A stretch of DNA of 64,000 nucleotides from an uncultured Cohaesibacter sp. (GTDB taxonomy: Bacteria > Pseudomonadota > Alphaproteobacteria > Rhizobiales > Cohaesibacteraceae): contig NZ_OY821667.1 of assembly GCF_963682185.1 (NCBI RefSeq), forward strand, positions 3,113,501 through 3,177,500, given 5' to 3'. The position numbers and the translations under genes were made by a program. Below, one piece after another: positions 28,189-36,911 of this stretch; within the stretch, counting starts at the first letter, position 1, and every line of letters begins with the position of its first letter. The notes beneath the pieces are model-generated. The model did no database searches. It saw only the letters and a list, made by a program, of their open reading frames with translations, and was not told where the DNA came from.

Positions 28189-29199
28189 TTATTTTGCAGC
28201 TGCGCGTGCATCGTCGAGCCATTTGTTGACTTCGTCCTGATGCTTTTCAATCCATGCAGCAGCCTGTGCTTTCACATCATCGTCGCCTTCATTCATGGCA
28301 GCATTCTGTGCATAGATGTCAGCTACAGGGATGCGCACTTCATCAAGAAGGGCCTTGACCGCAGGGTTCTTCTCAATGAAGGCATCGTTGGCAACTGGCA
28401 GGATATCAGCTGCAGCAAAGCCCATGGAGCAAGGATCGGATACGCAGGTTTTAAGGCCTTTCACGGCTGGAGCCGTTTCAACACCATCGCGTTCCGGCAC
28501 GGTGATCCACATGACATCTTTACCCGGCTTCAATTCGTTCACGGTCCAGTTTGGGGTCCATGTGTAGAACAGGATATGCTCGCCAGCTTCATAAGAAGCA
28601 ACAGCATCAGCCATGGAAGCAGAATAGCCAGCCTTGATAGGGTTGATATCGTCGCCGAGATCATAATCTTTCATATGTTCGGAGATCTTCACTTCGCAAC
28701 CCCAGCCTGGAGGGCAGGCAACCAGATCGGCTTTGCCATCGCCATTGCGGTCGAACGCTTCCTTGACTTCTGGGCGTTTGAAATCATCCAGAGATTTGAT
28801 GCCGAATTCATCAACGGCGGCCTTGTCAACGAGATAACCCTGCAGGGCGCCCTTCTCGGCGACAGCACCAACGATAGAAGCGGTATCTTCAAAAGCAGGC
28901 TTGTAGGTGTCATGCAGCGGGAACCAGCCGTTCACCCAAAGATCCAGATCGCCAAAAGCGACGGACTGGTAGAAGGCGGGTACGTCAAGGGTGGTCGGAC
29001 CGTCTACCGTGTAGCCGAGCTTCTGGAACAGCTGGCTGTAGATTTCGGAGTGGAACCAGCCGGTATCCCAGGTGGCCTGACCCATTTTGATGGTGACGCC
29101 TTCACCAGGCATGTCCGCTGCGAAGGACGGTGCTGCGGAAACCAATACAGCGCCGGACAGAGCGGCGGCTGCAGCAAATTTACGGATAGCATTTGCCAT
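28189..29199 (-). CDS. proX: Betaine/proline ABC importer, periplasmic binding protein
   Basis: This 336-residue protein has a signal peptide (residues about 1-28, ending APSFAAD) and the OpuAC fold of quaternary-amine-binding proteins. Aromatic residues that could form the ligand cage are in QATWDTGWFHS, NGWFPLHD and FYTWTPNW. Cys pairs occur in CPPGWGC and CVSDPC, possibly a disulfide. It is the last gene of a proV-proW-proX operon and has its own GGAGAG ribosome binding site. A hairpin precedes it and another follows, which fits a separately stabilised message. Choline, glycine betaine or proline betaine is a likely ligand. Confidence 0.88.
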   Translation of the reverse strand: MANAIRKFAAAAALSGAVLVSAAPSFAADMPGEGVTIKMGQATWDTGWFHSEIYSQLFQKLGYTVDGPTTLDVPAFYQSVAFGDLDLWVNGWFPLHDTYKPAFEDTASIVGAVAEKGALQGYLVDKAAVDEFGIKSLDDFKRPEVKEAFDRNGDGKADLVACPPGWGCEVKISEHMKDYDLGDDINPIKAGYSASMADAVASYEAGEHILFYTWTPNWTVNELKPGKDVMWITVPERDGVETAPAVKGLKTCVSDPCSMGFAAADILPVANDAFIEKNPAVKALLDEVRIPVADIYAQNAAMNEGDDDVKAQAAAWIEKHQDEVNKWLDDARAAAK

Positions 29200-29239
29200 A
29201 ATAAACTCTCCTCTAGTAATTTAGTGGTTCAAAATAGCA

Positions 29240-29270
29240 AAAGCCAGACAGACAGAGTCCATCCGGCTTT
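29240..29270 (-). other. Intercistronic hairpin proW-proX
   Basis: Read on the minus strand, AAAGCCGGA pairs with TCTGGCTTT (29270-29262 with 29248-29240), with one G-U pair and a 13-nt loop, followed by TGCTATTTTG. It lies between the proW stop and the proX ribosome binding site, and could act as a processing or partial termination site. Confidence 0.5.
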
Positions 29271-29283
29271 CACAGTTGTTTCG

Positions 29284-30207
29284 TCAAGCTTTTTGTTTGT
29301 CGGAAGCCGTTGCTGACTGTCCCTTGAAAATGGACGCAATGAAGCCAAGCAGAGACGTTTTGCTTGTGTTTGGTTCAGCAAAGCCCTGCGTGATACGGTC
29401 AAGAATGATCGCCAGAATGACAATGCCGACACCGCCAGCTGTTGCGCCACCAACGTCAAGGCGACCAAGACCGGTGTTAACCACCAGACCAAGACCACCA
29501 GCACCAATGAGAGCAGCAATAACGACCATGGACAAGGCCAGCATCAGAGTCTGGTTGAGACCTGCCATGATGGTGCGCAAGGCCAGAGGAATCTGGACTT
29601 CCCACAAAATCTGGAAATAGGTTGCCCCAAAGGATTCTGAGGCCTCGATCAGATCCTTGCGCACATTGCGAATGCCAAGGTTGGTCATGCGAATGATCGG
29701 CGGCAAGGCAAAGATAATGGTTGCAATGATACCCGGAGCCATACCGACACCGAACAACATCACGATCGGCACAAGATAAACGAAGCTTGGAACCGTCTGC
29801 ATGATATCCAGAATGGGGCGGACGATCTTCCAGGCTGTATCGCTACTTGAAGCGAGGATGCCGACAGGAATACCGATCACGGCGCAGAAGAGCACCGATG
29901 TGATAATCATCGACAGGGTTGTCATGGTTTCCGGCCAAAGGCCGATCATGTCAATGAAGAAGAAACCGATAATGGTTGCGATGGCCATGGTGCGGTTGAC
30001 AACGCGCCAGGCGACCAAAGCAAAAACGAGCGTGATAATGAGCATCGGCACCCAGGCAAAGAAGCCGTCAAGTGCCTGAAGAACCTCGTTCACCGGCACC
30101 TGCATTGCCCGGAAAAACGGGCGAAAGTTAGGAACCAGAAACCCGCGAACGAAGCTGTTGACCACGTCATCAAACGGAATGGTTAAAAAGTCTGAAGGGC
30201 TGATCAA
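29284..30207 (-). CDS. proW: Betaine/proline ABC importer, permease
   Basis: This 307-residue permease has about six to seven membrane helices and the BPD_transp_1 coupling loop EASESFGATYFQILWEVQIP, the EAA motif. PVGILASSSDTAW and MQTVPSFVYLVPIVMLFG are typical of ProW/OpuAB. The start is a TTG with AGGAG six bases upstream. The gene is 13 bp downstream of proV. Together with ProV and ProX it makes an osmoprotectant or nutrient quaternary-amine importer. Confidence 0.9.
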   Translation of the reverse strand: MISPSDFLTIPFDDVVNSFVRGFLVPNFRPFFRAMQVPVNEVLQALDGFFAWVPMLIITLVFALVAWRVVNRTMAIATIIGFFFIDMIGLWPETMTTLSMIITSVLFCAVIGIPVGILASSSDTAWKIVRPILDIMQTVPSFVYLVPIVMLFGVGMAPGIIATIIFALPPIIRMTNLGIRNVRKDLIEASESFGATYFQILWEVQIPLALRTIMAGLNQTLMLALSMVVIAALIGAGGLGLVVNTGLGRLDVGGATAGGVGIVILAIILDRITQGFAEPNTSKTSLLGFIASIFKGQSATASDKQKA

Positions 30208-30220
30208 GTCAGTCTCCTAA

Positions 30221-31429
30221 TTATATTGCTGCGCTTGTGATGCTGTCCGGCCCGGTCTCTTCTTCATCTGAAGCCAGATGCTCGAAGATATTCTCGGCGG
30301 AAACAACACCAACCAGCTTGCCGTCATCATCGGTTACGGCCAAAGGCATACCGGTTTGCGCTTCTGAATAGATTTCATTGAGATAAGCGTCTTGTGGCAC
30401 GGTCGGCGGGTGGGCGTGCATGATGTCCATGACGCGCGCTGACGTTTTTGCTGCTTCTACGTCGCTGCGGGTCAGAAGTCCGGCCGGAACGCCATCCTTG
30501 ACCACATGAATGATCTCGGTTTCGGTCCGGTCCATTGCTGCGATGGCATCGGAAACCCGCGCGGTGAGTGGAACGCGAGAGGCATCCTCGGCAATGTCGG
30601 AAGCGGTGTAAACGCGGCTGCGGTCGATATCGGCAACAAACGCTTTCACATAGGCGTCTGCCGGATCGGAAACAATGTCCTGCGCCGTCCCTACCTGAAC
30701 GAAGGCGCCATCTTTCATGATCGCGATGCGATCACCCAGAAGCAGGGCTTCGTTGAGATCGTGGGTAATGAAGATGATGGTTTTCTTCAGCTCGCGCTGG
30801 AGAACGACCAGTTCATCCTGCATCTCGCGGCGGATCAACGGGTCAAGCGCGCCGAACGGTTCATCCATCAGCAGGATTTCCGGATCGTTGGCCAGACCGC
30901 GTGCCAGACCGACACGCTGCTGCATGCCGCCCGAAAGCTCGCCAGGATAGCTGTCTGCATGCGCATCCAGCCCCACTTTATCAAGGGATTCAAGCGCTCT
31001 CTTGTAGCGTTCCTCTTTGGGAACTCCGTTGACCTTCAAACCGAAGGCCACATTATCCAAGACAGTCTTGTGCGGGAAAAGCGCGAAATGCTGGAAAACC
31101 ATGCAGCATTTCTCACGCCGAACTTTTCGAAGCTCTTCCTTTGAGCAGGAGGCCACGTCGACGTCGTCGACCCAGATCTCCCCCGCTGACGAAGGGATCA
31201 AGCCGTTCAAAGTGCGCACCAGTGTGGACTTGCCGGATCCTGAAAGACCCATGATAACGAAGATCTCGCCTTCGTTTACATCAAAGCTGACATTGTTGAT
31301 CCCGACGGTGACGCCGGTCTCGCGAAAAATCTGCTCTTTGCTTTGTCCCTGCTGAACGCGCTTCCAGCCTTCACCACTCTCATCATTAAAGAGCTTGGAA
31401 ACGTTCCTAACTTTCATTTTAATAGTCAT
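30221..31429 (-). CDS. proV: Betaine/proline ABC importer, ATPase with CBS domains
   Basis: This 402-residue ATPase has Walker [10 protein letters not shown], signature [14 protein letters not shown], Walker [12 protein letters not shown] and a C-terminal tail of two CBS repeats (about residues 280-395). In OpuA-type importers such CBS tails sense ionic strength, which suits osmotic control. The N-terminus reads [13 protein letters not shown], usual for ProV. I use the ATG at 31429; a GTG at 31447 and an ATG at 31417 are alternatives, none with a strong ribosome binding site. It is the first gene of the operon and faces the AT-rich gap. Confidence 0.9.
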
Positions 31430-31764
31430 GGAGTAGGCCTTTAACACACTCGTGCTGAAATTGAAACCGTGATCAAAATTTTCATAAAAAATTCAAATTG
31501 GATGCTTAAATTGAGCGCAAGTTATTCTTTACGTATTTTTGAATTCTCCTGTCATGAAAACCAATGAAATACGTTGAGTTTTTTTCATATTTGAATTGAA
31601 AGACTGATTGGTGATATATTTATACGCAAAATAGATTTTAACATGAGGTGTAAATATTTAAAAACTGGGATTGTCAATAAAACATAATCTTATACAGTAT
31701 TTATGATTTTTTCTTTTGTAATACAATATCGTGAAGGTATGACGGTTTCGTATATGTAAGGAAA

Positions 31765-31805
31765 TGTAAATTGTAAATAATTTACATATGAGGAAATTTG
31801 TAAAT
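31765..31805. promoter_or_regulatory. TGTAAAT cluster with 15-bp palindrome TGTAAATAATTTACA
   Basis: TGTAAAT occurs at 31765-31771, 31772-31778 and 31799-31805. The middle copy is the left half of a perfect palindrome TGTAAATAATTTACA (31772-31786). The clustering suggests cooperative binding of a dimeric regulator in the gap that controls proV and the GRE. The protein is not known. Confidence 0.45.
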
Positions 31806-32107
31806 TGTCCGAAAAATATATGTATATTTATATGAGTATTCTTTATGTTTTGTGAGTGAAAATTTTATGAGGGAAAAAATTTAGTATTTGTCATCTTTAA
31901 GGATGCCTGAGTAAGGGTTTTATATTTTTAAATCAAAAAAAGAATTTAAATTTTTCTTTCATATCATACCTAGGTGCAAGCCTCTCTACCTGTTTGTGGA
32001 AAGGTTTTGACTGGCGAGAGTTCGCGGGATTTCGAAAATATCAATAAGTACAAATGCTTAAGATAAATGCCGCAAGTTGACTTGTGCAGATCTGTTTCAT
32101 AAAAAGG

Positions 32108-32153
32108 TTGTGCGTTATTGCGCACAAACTGGGGCGCTATGACGCGATAACGC
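32108..32153. promoter_or_regulatory. Nested inverted repeats upstream of the GRE gene
   Basis: TTGTGCG (32108-32114) and CGCACAA (32121-32127) form a 7-bp inverted repeat with a 6-nt spacer. GCGTTAT (32112-32118) and ATAACGC (32147-32153) form another with a 28-nt spacer. They end about 54 bases before the GRE start, a normal place for an operator. The XRE-cupin regulator coded next to the GRE operon is a candidate ligand-responsive binder. Confidence 0.4.
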
Positions 32154-32207
32154 GGAATGGTGCCTGGTGTCGTTTCGCGCGCATGATGATGGAAGCGGAG
32201 CAAACGG

Positions 32208-34595
32208 ATGCTTAAAACGATGACGCCTGTATCTGATCGCATTGAACGGCTGCGGCAGAATTACGTCAATACCAAACCCTCAATCTGTTATGAGCGCGCC
32301 AAGATCTATACGGAGTCGCACAAGAAGACCGAAGGCAAGCCGACCATTCTGCGTCGCGCTCAGGCCTTTTATGATTTCTGTGCGCAATTCCAGGTCCGCA
32401 TTTTCGAGGATGAGCTGATTGTCGGAACGGCTGGCAAGTTTCGTCGGACCGGCATTCTGACGCCAGAATATTCCTGGAAGTGGGTCGACAAAGAAATGGA
32501 CACCTTCCCGACCCGCCCGCAAGACCCCTACCAGATCACGCCGGACCAGTGCGATGTCGTGCGCGCAGAGATTTTCCCCTATTGGCATGGCAAGTCTCTT
32601 GAGGAGCATTTTCTGGCCGCTTTGCCCGAAGAGACAGCAAGAATCGCCGTGGATACGGGCATCATCGACAATGATTCCAAATGGCGACAGGCCGTGGGTG
32701 AAATCACGCCGGACTATGAAGGTCACCTGTTCGTCAAAGGCTATGGCGGTATCCTCAAGGATGCCGAAGAAAAGCTCGCTGCGCTTGATTATCTCAACGC
32801 CGAGGATATCGACCGGATCCACTATTATCAGGCGACCATCCTTAGCGCCAAGGCCATCATTCTGCTGGCAAACCGTTATGCCGATCTGGCTGAAAGCATG
32901 GCAGAAGAAGAAGCCGACGGTGATCGTAAGGCCGAGCTGTTGGAAATTGCCCGCGTGTGTCGGCGCGTGCCGGAATATCCGCCGCAAAGCTTCCATGAAG
33001 CCACGCAATTCATCTGGTTTGTTCAGCTGGGCGGCATCATTACCGAGAATCCTCTGGCGCTCAATCCGGGGCGCTATGACCAGTTCATGTATCCCTATTA
33101 TGCGGCCGATCTGGACAAAGGCATTTTTGACAAGGCCGGCGCCAAGGAACTGATCCACGCTCTGTGGCTAAAATATTCCGAATGGGTCTGGACCATCTCG
33201 GAAAACACCACAGGCTATTTCGCTGGCTATAACCAGTTTCAGAACCTGACCGTTGGCGGCAAGAAGCGCGATGGCAGCGATGCGACCAACGAGCTGACCT
33301 ATCTCTGCCTTGAGGCAACCGATGAAGTGCGCACCCACCAGCCGGGTCTCAGCGTGCGTGTACAATCGGATTGTCCGCCAGAATTTCTCTATGCCGTGTC
33401 CGATCTGGTTAGCAAGGGCACGGGCTTCCCTGCGATCCATAACGATCAGGCCGGAACGCAGATGCTGCTGCAGGCCGGGTATGAACCCGAAGATGCCCGC
33501 GACTGGAACAATTGCGGCTGCGTTGTGCCTCATTTCCGCCAGACAGGGCAATGGACCAGCGCGGTCAATGTCAACTTCGCCGCAGCGATGGAATATGCCC
33601 TTAATGAGGGCAAGAGCCGCCTGACAGGCGAGAAGATGGGGCTTGATGCCAAGCCACTGGCAAACTATGCCAGCTATCAGGAAATCGAAGATGCCACCTT
33701 CGAGCAGGTGGGCAATCTCATTCATCATTCGGTGGTCTCCACCGTCATCGCCCAGAAACTCCACGCGGAAATGGTGCCGCGTCCATTCCTGTCCACCTGC
33801 ATCGGTCATTGTCTGGAAGAGGGCAAGGATCTTTCTCGCGGGGGCGCGAAATATAATGTCGGTCCGGTTCTGACCGGTATCGGCCTTGCGGTCGTCGCCA
33901 ACTCGCTGGCCGTCATCAAGAAACTTGTGTTCGAAGACAAGGTGACCACGCTCGCCGAACTGGATGCCGCGATGAACGCCGACTGGGAGGGCTATGACGC
34001 CCTGCGTACCAAGGCGCTTGCTGTGGTCAAATATGGCAATGACGACGACTATGTCGATGCCATCGCGCGCGATCTGGCCAACTATTATTATCGCAAAACC
34101 CGCGCCTATAAGGACAATTTCGGGTCGCCCTTCAACTCGGCCTTCATGGGCATTTCCAACTATATCCCAACGGGGCGGATCGTCGGGGCCACCCCGTGCG
34201 GACGCAAGGCGACCAAGCCGATTACGGAAGGGGTTTCGCCCTTTGCCGGCAGCGATGTGAAGAGCCCACTCGCAGCCATGCGCTCCAGCGCCAAGATGAA
34301 TCATGATGTGCACACCGGCGGCACACTGCTCAACTTGCGCCTTAGTGAAGATCTGGTCAGCACGCCAAAGGGCAAGCGCGATCTGGGTGGCATCATCCGA
34401 GCCTATTTCTCGCTCGGGGCTTTTCATGTGCAGTTTAACACGCTGTCCACCGAGACCTTGCGCAAGGCCCAGAAAAATCCGGAAGACTACAAAGATCTAC
34501 TGGTGCGGGTTGCTGGCTACAGCACCCAGTTTGTCAATCTCTCGCCTGAAATGCAGGAGGCGATCATCGCACGGTCGGCTCATGGCAGTTATTGA
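32208..34595 (+). CDS. Glycyl-radical enzyme of unknown substrate (atypical GCVVP active site)
   Basis: This 795-residue protein is a full-length member of the pyruvate formate-lyase/glycyl-radical enzyme (GRE) family. The C-terminal glycyl-radical loop reads VRVAGYS, then FVNLSPEMQEAI (radical Gly at about 770). The family's SFHEATQFIWF and PGRYDQFMYPYY segments are at 261-297. The predicted catalytic thiyl Cys is C438 in NNCGCVVPH. In the dehydratases and lyases I can recall (CutC, glycerol dehydratase, HypD, isethionate lyase) the residue two after the Cys is a Glu acting as base; here it is V440. C436, two before C438, is a further Cys. So it is not simply one of those enzymes. GGAG stands 8 bases before the ATG. 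The activase gene overlaps its 3' end by 14 bp. Confidence 0.88.
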   Translation: MLKTMTPVSDRIERLRQNYVNTKPSICYERAKIYTESHKKTEGKPTILRRAQAFYDFCAQFQVRIFEDELIVGTAGKFRRTGILTPEYSWKWVDKEMDTFPTRPQDPYQITPDQCDVVRAEIFPYWHGKSLEEHFLAALPEETARIAVDTGIIDNDSKWRQAVGEITPDYEGHLFVKGYGGILKDAEEKLAALDYLNAEDIDRIHYYQATILSAKAIILLANRYADLAESMAEEEADGDRKAELLEIARVCRRVPEYPPQSFHEATQFIWFVQLGGIITENPLALNPGRYDQFMYPYYAADLDKGIFDKAGAKELIHALWLKYSEWVWTISENTTGYFAGYNQFQNLTVGGKKRDGSDATNELTYLCLEATDEVRTHQPGLSVRVQSDCPPEFLYAVSDLVSKGTGFPAIHNDQAGTQMLLQAGYEPEDARDWNNCGCVVPHFRQTGQWTSAVNVNFAAAMEYALNEGKSRLTGEKMGLDAKPLANYASYQEIEDATFEQVGNLIHHSVVSTVIAQKLHAEMVPRPFLSTCIGHCLEEGKDLSRGGAKYNVGPVLTGIGLAVVANSLAVIKKLVFEDKVTTLAELDAAMNADWEGYDALRTKALAVVKYGNDDDYVDAIARDLANYYYRKTRAYKDNFGSPFNSAFMGISNYIPTGRIVGATPCGRKATKPITEGVSPFAGSDVKSPLAAMRSSAKMNHDVHTGGTLLNLRLSEDLVSTPKGKRDLGGIIRAYFSLGAFHVQFNTLSTETLRKAQKNPEDYKDLLVRVAGYSTQFVNLSPEMQEAIIARSAHGSY

Positions 34596-35499
34596 TCGCG
34601 GTGAATTAGGCAAGAACGGTGTGATCCTGCAAATGCAGGATTACTCCATCCATGATGGAGAAGGGGTCCGCACGATCATCTTTCTGGCCGGATGCGGCCT
34701 CAGGTGCCAGTGGTGCGCCAATCCGGAGAGCTGGACCCAGCATAAGAAACTCGCCTATCACGCCCACAAATGCAAAGGCTGCCACACGTGCCGCTCTGTC
34801 TGCCCGGAAGGGCTCGACCCAGCGGCGGAAGGCTTTGATATTACCCGCTGCACCTTCTGCGGAGACTGCGTGGCCGCGTGCCCGGAAAAGGCACTCCAGC
34901 TCGCCTGTGAAGCGATGGATGCCGATGCGGTTCTTGACCAGATCCGCCGCGACGAAATTTTCTTTCGCCATTCCGGTGGCGGGGTGACATTCTCTGGCGG
35001 AGAGCCTTTTGTGCAGCACCAGTTTCTTCGGCGCCTAGTGGCCGGTTGCGAAAAGCTCGGTGTTTCTGTCTGGGTGGAAAGCTGCGGCTTTTTCAAATGG
35101 GACCAGTGCAGCGACCTGATGGCGGGGATCGATCATATCTTCTTTGATATCAAGCATATGGATAGTGAAACCCACCGGAAGTTTACCGGCTTGGGCAACG
35201 AAACCATTCTTGAAAATGCCAAGAGGATCTTCTCAGCTGGCGTTCCGATGACGGTTCGTATTCCCCTGATCACGGAAGTGAATCTGGACGGCAGGAATCT
35301 CACCGCAACAGCGCGCTTCATGCAGGACCATCTGCCGGGCAGCCTGATTGAGCTGTTGCCCTATCATGAGCTTGGCAAAGCCAAATATAATGCGTTTCGC
35401 ATGCAGGATGACTTCCATGCCTTTACCACGCCAACAGCAGCACAAGTCGAGGCTGCCTACAGTATCTTCGAGCATCATGGGGTAGGGCGTTATCAGTAG
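34582..35499 (+). CDS. Glycyl-radical enzyme activating enzyme (radical SAM)
   Basis: This 305-residue radical-SAM activase has the CX3CX2C cluster motif CGLRCQWC, followed by a two-cluster ferredoxin insert with CKGCHTCRSVC and CTFCGDCVAAC. The GGE motif is SGGEPF. It also has DYSIHDGEGVRT near the N-terminus, the usual start of GRE activases. The two extra [4Fe-4S] clusters are typical of activases for GREs other than classic PFL. It installs the radical on the Gly of the upstream enzyme. The ATG at 34582 overlaps the GRE stop; AGGAGG is 22 bases upstream. It converges on the XRE-cupin gene with a seven-base overlap of coding ends. Confidence 0.9.
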   Translation: MAVIDRGELGKNGVILQMQDYSIHDGEGVRTIIFLAGCGLRCQWCANPESWTQHKKLAYHAHKCKGCHTCRSVCPEGLDPAAEGFDITRCTFCGDCVAACPEKALQLACEAMDADAVLDQIRRDEIFFRHSGGGVTFSGGEPFVQHQFLRRLVAGCEKLGVSVWVESCGFFKWDQCSDLMAGIDHIFFDIKHMDSETHRKFTGLGNETILENAKRIFSAGVPMTVRIPLITEVNLDGRNLTATARFMQDHLPGSLIELLPYHELGKAKYNAFRMQDDFHAFTTPTAAQVEAAYSIFEHHGVGRYQ

Positions 35500-36023
35500 C
35501 TGACAATATTCTGGAAGACGACCATTTGGCTCGCGGCTCGATAGCCATGGGGCTGATCGGCGTAGAAGCGGAAGGTTCCGCCTTCTTCGACCGTCTGCCA
35601 ATAACCATCGGCAAAGATCTCCAGCGTTCCCTTCACAACAATCACACTCTCCACCACGCCATGGGCATGGGGATCGGACATCTGGCAATGATGGTTGGTC
35701 AGGGTGATTTCATGGATCTCGAAATTTACCGCTTCGCTGTAGGGAAAGATCGAGACCATCTTCATGTCTGGATCGTTTGGAAAGGTCGGACTTTCTTCCG
35801 GATCGGTTGACTGGCCGAGAAAAGCGGAGAAAGAGGTTTCCAGACCAGTCGCGATTTGCCAGAGCTTGGCAATGGTGGGGCTAGATTCTTCCCGCTCGAT
35901 CTGCCCGAGCATAGCCTTGGATACACCGGTCAGTTTGGCGACATCATCGAGGCTGAGTTTGCGCTGGCTGCGTATCGTCTTCAGATGGGCTGCGACAGAG
36001 TGTTTGAATTTGTTTTCCGACAC
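35493..36023 (-). CDS. XRE-cupin transcriptional regulator
   Basis: This 176-residue protein joins an N-terminal XRE-type helix-turn-helix (KLSLDDVAKLTGVSKAMLGQ, residues about 22-41) to a C-terminal cupin domain with the HHCQMSDPHAHGVVESVIVV metal-site-like segment and a second strand at YADQPHGYRA. Such regulators sense small ligands and often control catabolic operons for amines, sugars or amino acids. It starts at a GTG preceded by GGGA. The gene converges on the GRE-activase operon, with stop codons overlapping, so antisense interference is possible. It is the likely regulator of that operon or of the TRAP cluster. Confidence 0.88.
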   Translation of the reverse strand: MSENKFKHSVAAHLKTIRSQRKLSLDDVAKLTGVSKAMLGQIEREESSPTIAKLWQIATGLETSFSAFLGQSTDPEESPTFPNDPDMKMVSIFPYSEAVNFEIHEITLTNHHCQMSDPHAHGVVESVIVVKGTLEIFADGYWQTVEEGGTFRFYADQPHGYRAASQMVVFQNIVSY

Positions 36024-36103: not shown

Positions 36104-36745
36104 CTAGAGTTGTTCCCCCAATGCCAGATGCAGGGAATTGTTGATGTGTCTTTCAAGAGCCTTTTCGGCTTCGGCAATGTCGGACGAAAGCATGGGGCGC
36201 AAAATGGCCAGATGCTCACCTGTGATACGCTCTGCGTTGAAGGGGGTCACTTGGAGGCGAGATTGTACGACCATGTGAATTTTGACCGAATTGACGCGGT
36301 AGACATTGGAAATTAGGGCATTTTGCATGCTGCCGATCAAGGCTGCGTGTATGTCCCAGTCAAGCTTCTGCATGGCATCGGCGTCATCCTGGTCAGATTT
36401 GGCCTGTATATTTGCCAGATAGGTTTCATGTTGCCTGATCCAGTCTGCAATGATCTCTTTGGGGATGCGGTTCACCGCAGCGCTGATGGCACTGATCTCC
36501 AGGATGCGCCTCAACTCATAGGCATCGCGTACAAAAGAAACATCAAGAGAGGGGACCATGAGCCCACGCTTGGGGATGGTTTCAAGAAGGCCGTCGGCCT
36601 CAAGGCGCGGAATGGCTTCCCGTATGGAGCCAAGCGTCGAACCGGTCATTTCCATCAGTTCGCGTTGCGATACCAAGGTGCCCGGCTTCAGGGCTCCCTG
36701 ATCGAGCAATTCCACGATGCGTTCATAGGCCGCGCGCTTTAGCAT
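36104..36745 (-). CDS. GntR family regulator, FCD subfamily
   Basis: This 213-residue protein has an N-terminal winged helix (ALKPGTLVSQRELMEMTG and SIREAIPRLEADGLL) and an all-helical FCD effector domain of about 140 residues with the metal-type residues in LRRILEISA, DWDIHAALI and GEHLAIL. FCD regulators usually bind organic acids. I use the ATG at 36745, which has AGGAATTAAGA just upstream; an ATG at 36763 lacks one. It is divergent from the TRAP importer at 36996, and a palindrome lies in between. I infer that it represses dctPQM and the downstream catabolic genes. Confidence 0.88.
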   Translation of the reverse strand: MLKRAAYERIVELLDQGALKPGTLVSQRELMEMTGSTLGSIREAIPRLEADGLLETIPKRGLMVPSLDVSFVRDAYELRRILEISAISAAVNRIPKEIIADWIRQHETYLANIQAKSDQDDADAMQKLDWDIHAALIGSMQNALISNVYRVNSVKIHMVVQSRLQVTPFNAERITGEHLAILRPMLSSDIAEAEKALERHINNSLHLALGEQL

Positions 36746-36911
36746 TCTTAATTCCTGTCTCATGCATTGGGCTGCCGGATAGCAGTATCCAGTTCATTCT
36801 CTCATTACGCGTCATGGGGTGCGAGTGCAACCATATTGCTTTCATCCACACGGACGCCAAGAGGATCCCAATCTATTCACAAATTTTCGTAACAGGTCAA
36901 AGTTACGATTG

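Follow-up and report, generated by a model that had tools for sequence, protein, structure and literature searches.

A glycyl radical enzyme family with valine in place of the eliminase glutamate, from a Cohaesibacter genome

In eliminases of the glycyl radical enzyme (GRE) superfamily, the Glu residue two positions after the thiyl Cys deprotonates the hydroxyl group of the substrate, and the Cys-x-Glu motif is the usual guide to these enzymes. The locus described here raises the question of what a GRE with the eliminase fold does without this base. The window, a 64,000-nucleotide stretch from the genome of an uncultured Cohaesibacter sp. (5.39 Mb, single contig), encodes a GRE that reads CGCVVP at its predicted thiyl site. 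A search of the openly licensed literature, with most subscription journals outside its scope, found no paper on this motif.

The GRE gene is one uninterrupted frame on the plus strand, from an ATG at 32208 to a stop codon ending at 34595, and encodes 795 amino acids that match the Pfam PFL-like (719.4 bits) and Gly_radical (PF01228, 109.7 bits) families. Read directly, the codons give C436 (TGC, 33513–33515), G437 (GGC), C438 (TGC, 33519–33521), V439 (GTT), V440 (GTG, 33525–33527), P441 (CCT) and H442 (CAT), with the glycyl radical site at G770 (GGC, 34515–34517) in the loop LLVRVAGYSTQF. C438 aligns with C489 of CutC and is the predicted thiyl Cys; C436 lies two residues N-terminal of it, and V440 takes the place of the catalytic Glu of the eliminases (E491 in CutC). 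A Gly_radical loop with its catalytic Gly, a mid-protein Cys, a PFL-like fold and a cognate radical-SAM activase encoded alongside place the protein in the GRE superfamily. The frame, the codons and the Pfam matches bear out the full-length enzyme and intact radical loop that the initial annotation had described. The protein is 98% identical to the GRE of Cohaesibacter marisflavi. The same genome holds two further GREs, one PFL-type and one HpfG-like; the latter (L157, G000:C1:366900-370100) reads GCVEP, scores 682 bits against the NF048009 cut-off of 1000, and reaches the cut-off of one model alone, the broad TIGR01774.

Whether the Val is real can be judged from the family, for which we took 80 of the 179 relatives found and two additional loci (L164 and L165; n = 82). 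V440, C436 and C438 are present in all 82 loci, and G770 in all 81 that are readable at that position. Eight of 18 Cohaesibacter genomes carry the gene, and all eight read NCGCVVPH. Compared with nine relatives, the window gene has a dN/dS (Nei-Gojobori) of 0.017–0.056, and the family GRE is under strong purifying selection. Together, the fixed motif and the low dN/dS speak against both a sequencing error and a decaying copy. An error at the V440 codon, the caveat raised when the Val was first noticed, is ruled out by the 82 loci, the eight genomes of the genus and the low dN/dS, and the replacement of Glu by Val is real. Two copies in other genomes are interrupted. The family GRE of genome G208 (L166, 225–2506) is split close to the motif, which is unreadable there, reflecting either an error in the metagenome-assembled genome (MAG) or a pseudogene. 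The copy of Terrisporobacter petrolearius (L058) has an in-frame TGA between the segments that align with positions 386 and 390, and an intact homologue exists in T. mayombei; selenocysteine at this TGA was rejected because the aligned residue of the intact homologue is not a cysteine.

How unusual this replacement is depends on the GREs with which it is compared. The initial annotation had set the Val against a Glu shared by characterized dehydratases and lyases; this comparison holds for the sequences of CutC, HypD, 4-hydroxyphenylacetate decarboxylase (HPAD) and glycerol dehydratase, but it does not extend to GREs as a whole. Glu also occupies this position in HpsG, HpfG-like and PflD sequences and in 1,2-propanediol dehydratase, and 14 of 18 other GREs in our reference set keep it. 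The exceptions are three PFLs, which have Ser, and L150, which, like L094, reads MSCVGTG at the radical Cys, with Gly in place of Glu. L150 has no NCBIfam equivalog and a fragment of it is closest to HypD in the PDB, and a ‘BSS-like’ label for it was dropped on these grounds. A search of 245 genomes of the Clostridia class gave 44 matches, 39 of them outside the family, and Glu follows the Cys by two residues in all 17 that were sampled from these 39. When 60 genomes of the same class were searched with the PFL-like profile, more than 100 matches came up; 30 sampled loci comprised 12 with Glu and 18 PFLs with Ser, and two more matches were family members already known. As read from these motifs, then, Glu is not universal among GREs.

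The family nevertheless appears to stand on its own. In a maximum-likelihood tree of 47 rows, the 29 family rows form one clade with support of 100/100 on a branch of 0.77. Within the 245 Clostridia-class genomes, identity falls from 56% inside the family to 40% outside it. None of the 12 NCBIfam models listed for the window enzyme reaches its cut-off: the highest profile score is that of the CutC model (TIGR04394; 723.9 bits against 1050), the HypD model scores 566.1 bits against 1100 (NF043068), and the PFL model gives 121.2 bits against 994.2 (TIGR01255), the protein having C-G-C and no adjacent C-C pair. The broad eliminase-type model TIGR01774 (PFL2-3) comes close, at 674.1 bits against 678.2, and sequences of HypD, CutC and HpsG likewise fall below this cut-off, which leaves the near miss with little meaning. 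The discrete clade, the Val throughout, the profile scores and the identity gap support the earlier proposal of a new GRE subfamily, which we treat as a separate, sequence-defined group. Its nearest neighbors are CutC and a GRE (L145) close to the N-methyl-4-hydroxyproline dehydratase structure 8id1 (1220 bits). The fork that joins them has support of 92/86, with long branches flagged, and any branching order drawn from it for CutC, the N-methyl-4-hydroxyproline type and the CGCVVP family is tentative. With the whole protein as query, phmmer scores rank CutC first, then 8id1, glycerol dehydratase, 9rco and 8iof; with the motif region alone as query, 8id1 ranks first.

The family is rare but wide. 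It occurs in 4 of the 245 Clostridia-class genomes (one gene being split and one genome being the center of the search), in 5 of 398 genomes of the phylum (two of them carriers already known) and in 1 of 289 alphaproteobacterial genomes, that of the window itself. Members are mostly Bacillota, with MAGs of Synergistota and Actinomycetota and a few Alphaproteobacteria, and the records include Intestinibacter bartlettii, Evtepia gabavorous, Sedimentibacter and Terrisporobacter. In the tree, those of Cohaesibacter are embedded in Bacillota with strong support, which suggests that the GRE gene moved between phyla. Of 22 carrier genomes chosen by hand, 11 have a D-proline reductase PrdA above its cut-off and 11 do not, compared with 6 of 99 genomes sampled from a single class that have one (Fisher p = 4e-6, ancestry ignored); the carriers lie partly outside the comparison class, and two of the 99 are themselves carriers (G061 with PrdA, G089 without). 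This enrichment fits amino-acid fermenters and implies no fixed partnership.

Genomic context might be expected to name the substrate, and here it defines a small cassette. A radical-SAM GRE activase with a ferredoxin-type cluster insert (34582–35499, plus strand; TIGR02494, 311.8 bits against a cut-off of 174.35) follows the GRE gene, its likely ATG at 34582, the start that we chose, overlapping the end of the GRE gene by 14 nt; the family scans used 34576–35499. An activase homologue lies after the GRE in 79 of 79 family loci with enough flanking sequence. A regulator with XRE-type helix-turn-helix and cupin domains (HTH_3, Cupin_2; 35493–36023, minus strand) is part of the wider cassette, and 38 of the 63 loci with sufficient flanking sequence have a homologue close to the GRE. 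Next to it in the window, a GntR/FCD regulator assigned by Pfam (36104–36763, minus strand) has homologues directly before the GRE, in place of the XRE-cupin protein, at four loci (L065, L069, L074 and L082). The conserved unit is GRE plus activase, often with the XRE-cupin regulator.

Other neighbors vary. It had been anticipated that homologues with Val would share the TRAP transporter and DapA-type genes found beside the window GRE, and this expectation failed outside Cohaesibacter: the full set of TRAP, D-2-hydroxyacid dehydrogenase, DapA and PfkB genes is present in 2 of 80 loci (L004 and L005), both Cohaesibacter, and was rejected as a family-wide partner. Single homologues occur elsewhere at L022 and L026 (dehydrogenase) and at L069 (PfkB). 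Within Cohaesibacter, 13 of 18 genomes have the DapA homologue, including five (G005, G012, G014, G015 and G016; 64–92% identity) that have no family GRE. In seven of the eight carriers the DapA homologue and the GRE are separated by no more than about 10 kb, in G011 by about 730 kb, and the link may be local to the genus and separable. A glycine betaine/L-proline-type ABC transporter (ProX, ProW and ProV; 28189–31447, minus strand) is divergent from the window GRE; it adjoins the GRE in C. marisflavi-like genomes only and was set aside as a clue to partners.

No pathway gene recurs beside the cassette in samples of 30 and 10 neighbor proteins assigned by Pfam, which vary by lineage and include, for example, peptidase M20, MATE, aldo-keto reductase, KARI and metallophosphatase proteins. 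No riboswitch reached the gathering threshold on the cassette in 21 loci and the window. A ZMP/ZTP riboswitch near the cassette of a Megasphaera MAG (L077, 8265–8343, minus strand) lies on the strand of a neighboring 752-residue GRE. FNR-like sites number 39 in the window against 34.2 expected, with none in 31448–32207. The activase of an Acidaminobacter MAG is followed, after 67 bp, by a gene for formimidoylglutamase (HutG; L083, 3474–4517). Two MAGs, one of Clostridium and one of Tepidibacter, have a gene for the HPAD large subunit downstream of the cassette (L021:15172-17880, about 1.8 kb away, and L066:13568-16288, about 0.4 kb away; NF033715, 1623 and 1708 bits against 1150), each with an ORF of about 92–95 residues and an activase. 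Because the GRE-activase cassette is self-contained, its substrate and product may be part of general metabolism; alternatively, the product may be excreted.

The active site was compared with CutC, whose pocket we take to be C489, E491, Y208, D216, T502 and Y506; Y208, T502 and E491 mutants occur in PDB titles. The corresponding residues of the window GRE are C438, V440, S157 (for Y208), E165 (for D216), T450 (for T502) and N454 (for Y506), and F344 corresponds to F395. Cys and Thr of the CutC pocket are kept, and Glu, Tyr, Asp and Tyr have become Val, Ser, Glu and Asn. An AlphaFold2 model (mean pLDDT 93.3) has a normal GRE fold in which strands 434–436 and 440–442 flank C438. Foldseek places CutC first (TM 0.97 to the best chains), followed by glycerol and propanediol dehydratases and, after them, 8iof and 8id1; the top chains of each have a TM of about 0.96–0.97.

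Both 8id1 and 8iof read CGCVETN at the radical Cys, that is, C-G-C together with Glu, and the window enzyme departs from this pattern at V440. The additional Cys singled out in the initial annotation is thus present throughout the family but is not special to it. At the level of the motif, what is novel is the Val in place of Glu, the extra Cys being already known from dehydratases, and the proposal that C436 and C438 act as a PFL-like pair is weakened.

An alignment of 38 sequences, 25 from the family and 13 from other GREs (three of the N-methyl-4-hydroxyproline type), extends this comparison to the whole protein. In 24 columns, all 25 family rows have one residue that none of the 13 others has, among them D156, W159, L283, L285, W326, I330, N333, V440, H442, R444 and R525; across the 82 loci, L285, R444 and R525 are each found in 81, and the other eight in all. 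Eleven columns, including K158, E165, W433 and C436, are common to the family and the three N-methyl-4-hydroxyproline-type rows, with at most one of the ten others. Ten other columns are common to the family and CutC and absent in the N-methyl-4-hydroxyproline rows. The residue at the position of L283 is Asp in HypD, His in the HpfG-like GRE, Ala in the N-methyl-4-hydroxyproline type and Thr in CutC; L283 is therefore not evidence for a second lost group, because the position is already Ala or Thr in the closest types.

Based on these comparisons, we propose a reading to which we give a probability of roughly 40%: that the enzyme is a GRE lyase that breaks a C–N or C–C bond of a small amino-acid- or betaine-like substrate and does so without deprotonating a hydroxyl group. 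The family is probably isofunctional and would sit on the branch with CutC and the N-methyl-4-hydroxyproline dehydratases. A radical would be generated on G770 by the activase encoded next to the GRE and, by analogy with the superfamily, would pass to C438. The thiyl radical on C438 is expected to take a hydrogen atom from a small zwitterionic substrate of the amino-acid or betaine class, whose amino-acid part would be held by K158 and E165, residues common to the N-methyl-4-hydroxyproline dehydratases. The substrate radical would then most likely break a C–N or C–C bond and not lose water, because the Glu that would deprotonate a hydroxyl group is V440. With this Glu gone, ordinary dehydration becomes a less likely reaction, and the different chemistry suggested in the initial annotation is plausible. 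The link to substrates of the amino-acid type is weak, since ten columns go with CutC and, in the Foldseek ranking, 8iof and 8id1 come below the dehydratases of glycerol and propanediol.

The main rival, which we consider possible though less probable than lyase cleavage of a C–N or C–C bond, is that the enzyme is an ordinary GRE eliminase, either a dehydratase or a C–N lyase, whose base has moved to E165 (the place of CutC D216), D156 or H442. The closest relatives and structures are eliminases, and E165, D156 and H442 are invariant in all 82 loci, D156 and H442 being absent from the 13 other GREs compared; such a relocation could count against our proposal. Against it, most reference GREs keep the Glu, the exceptions being the PFLs and L150, and the N-methyl-4-hydroxyproline type keeps it despite having both E165 and C436. 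Position 283 brings the rival closer to the lyase reading, since the rows of the nearest dehydratases and of CutC have Ala or Thr there, and not Asp or His. A bolder view, which we regard as possible but less likely than not, is that the eliminase fold has given up its base for a radical reaction new to GREs (C–C or C–N fragmentation without a hydroxyl group, isomerization or a mutase reaction). Its substrate would be a common metabolite of the amino-acid type, and its carriers are anaerobes of gut and sediment together with a few Alphaproteobacteria.

A decarboxylase with an excreted product, like the arylacetate decarboxylases, would explain a self-contained cassette without pathway genes. 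The hydrophobic V440 would be in keeping with such a reaction, as would the HPAD operon downstream in 2 of 80 loci; HPAD itself, however, has Glu at the position of V440 and is far off in the tree, and we judge this explanation improbable. Less probable still is a radical isomerase, epimerase or carbon-skeleton mutase in which a hydrogen atom taken by C438 is given back by C436 or C438, so that a base is not required. Two invariant Cys residues without Glu would suit this chemistry, as would the basic R444 and R525, which the 13 other GREs lack, but C436 is common to true dehydratases and is no mark of new chemistry, and we know of no isomerase, epimerase or mutase among GREs. Weakest is a PFL-like C–C lyase of a 2-oxo acid using CoA, very unlikely even though PFL also has two nearby Cys residues and no Glu, given the far side of the tree on which PFL lies, the C-G-C in place of C-C spacing, and the Ser of PFL where the family has Val.

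A conserved family without Glu, found in gut, sediment and marine bacteria, means that the Cys-x-Glu motif should not be assumed inside the CutC branch. It also offers a clean case for asking what an eliminase-fold GRE does without its base. Its reaction might supply a step that is missing from the anaerobic breakdown of amino acids or betaines.

Among known systems, CutC is the best match in sequence and by Foldseek; T502 and F395 are kept, and ten columns are shared by CutC and the family alone or nearly alone. CutC differs in having no C-G-C, its Y208, D216, E491 and Y506 are replaced in the family, and the window enzyme falls below the CutC cut-off. The N-methyl-cis-4-hydroxy-L-proline dehydratase of I. 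bartlettii (8id1) and the N-methyl-cis-4-hydroxy-D-proline dehydratase (8iof) are like the window enzyme in fold (TMq 0.96–0.97). At 37–39% identity, this type has C-G-C in common with the family and keeps K158, E165 and W433 in the three rows, but it retains Glu where the family has Val and has Asp where the family has N454. The B12-independent glycerol dehydratase and 1,2-propanediol dehydratase, which Foldseek ranks between CutC and these two structures, differ in that both read GCVEP, with 36–37% identity in the Foldseek alignment. HypD belongs to the same superfamily and has the glycyl and thiyl sites, but it is 33% identical, reads GCVEA or GCVET and lies in a separate clade of the tree. 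PFL likewise does without the Glu, having Ser, but it is distant both in sequence (about 20% identity) and in the tree.
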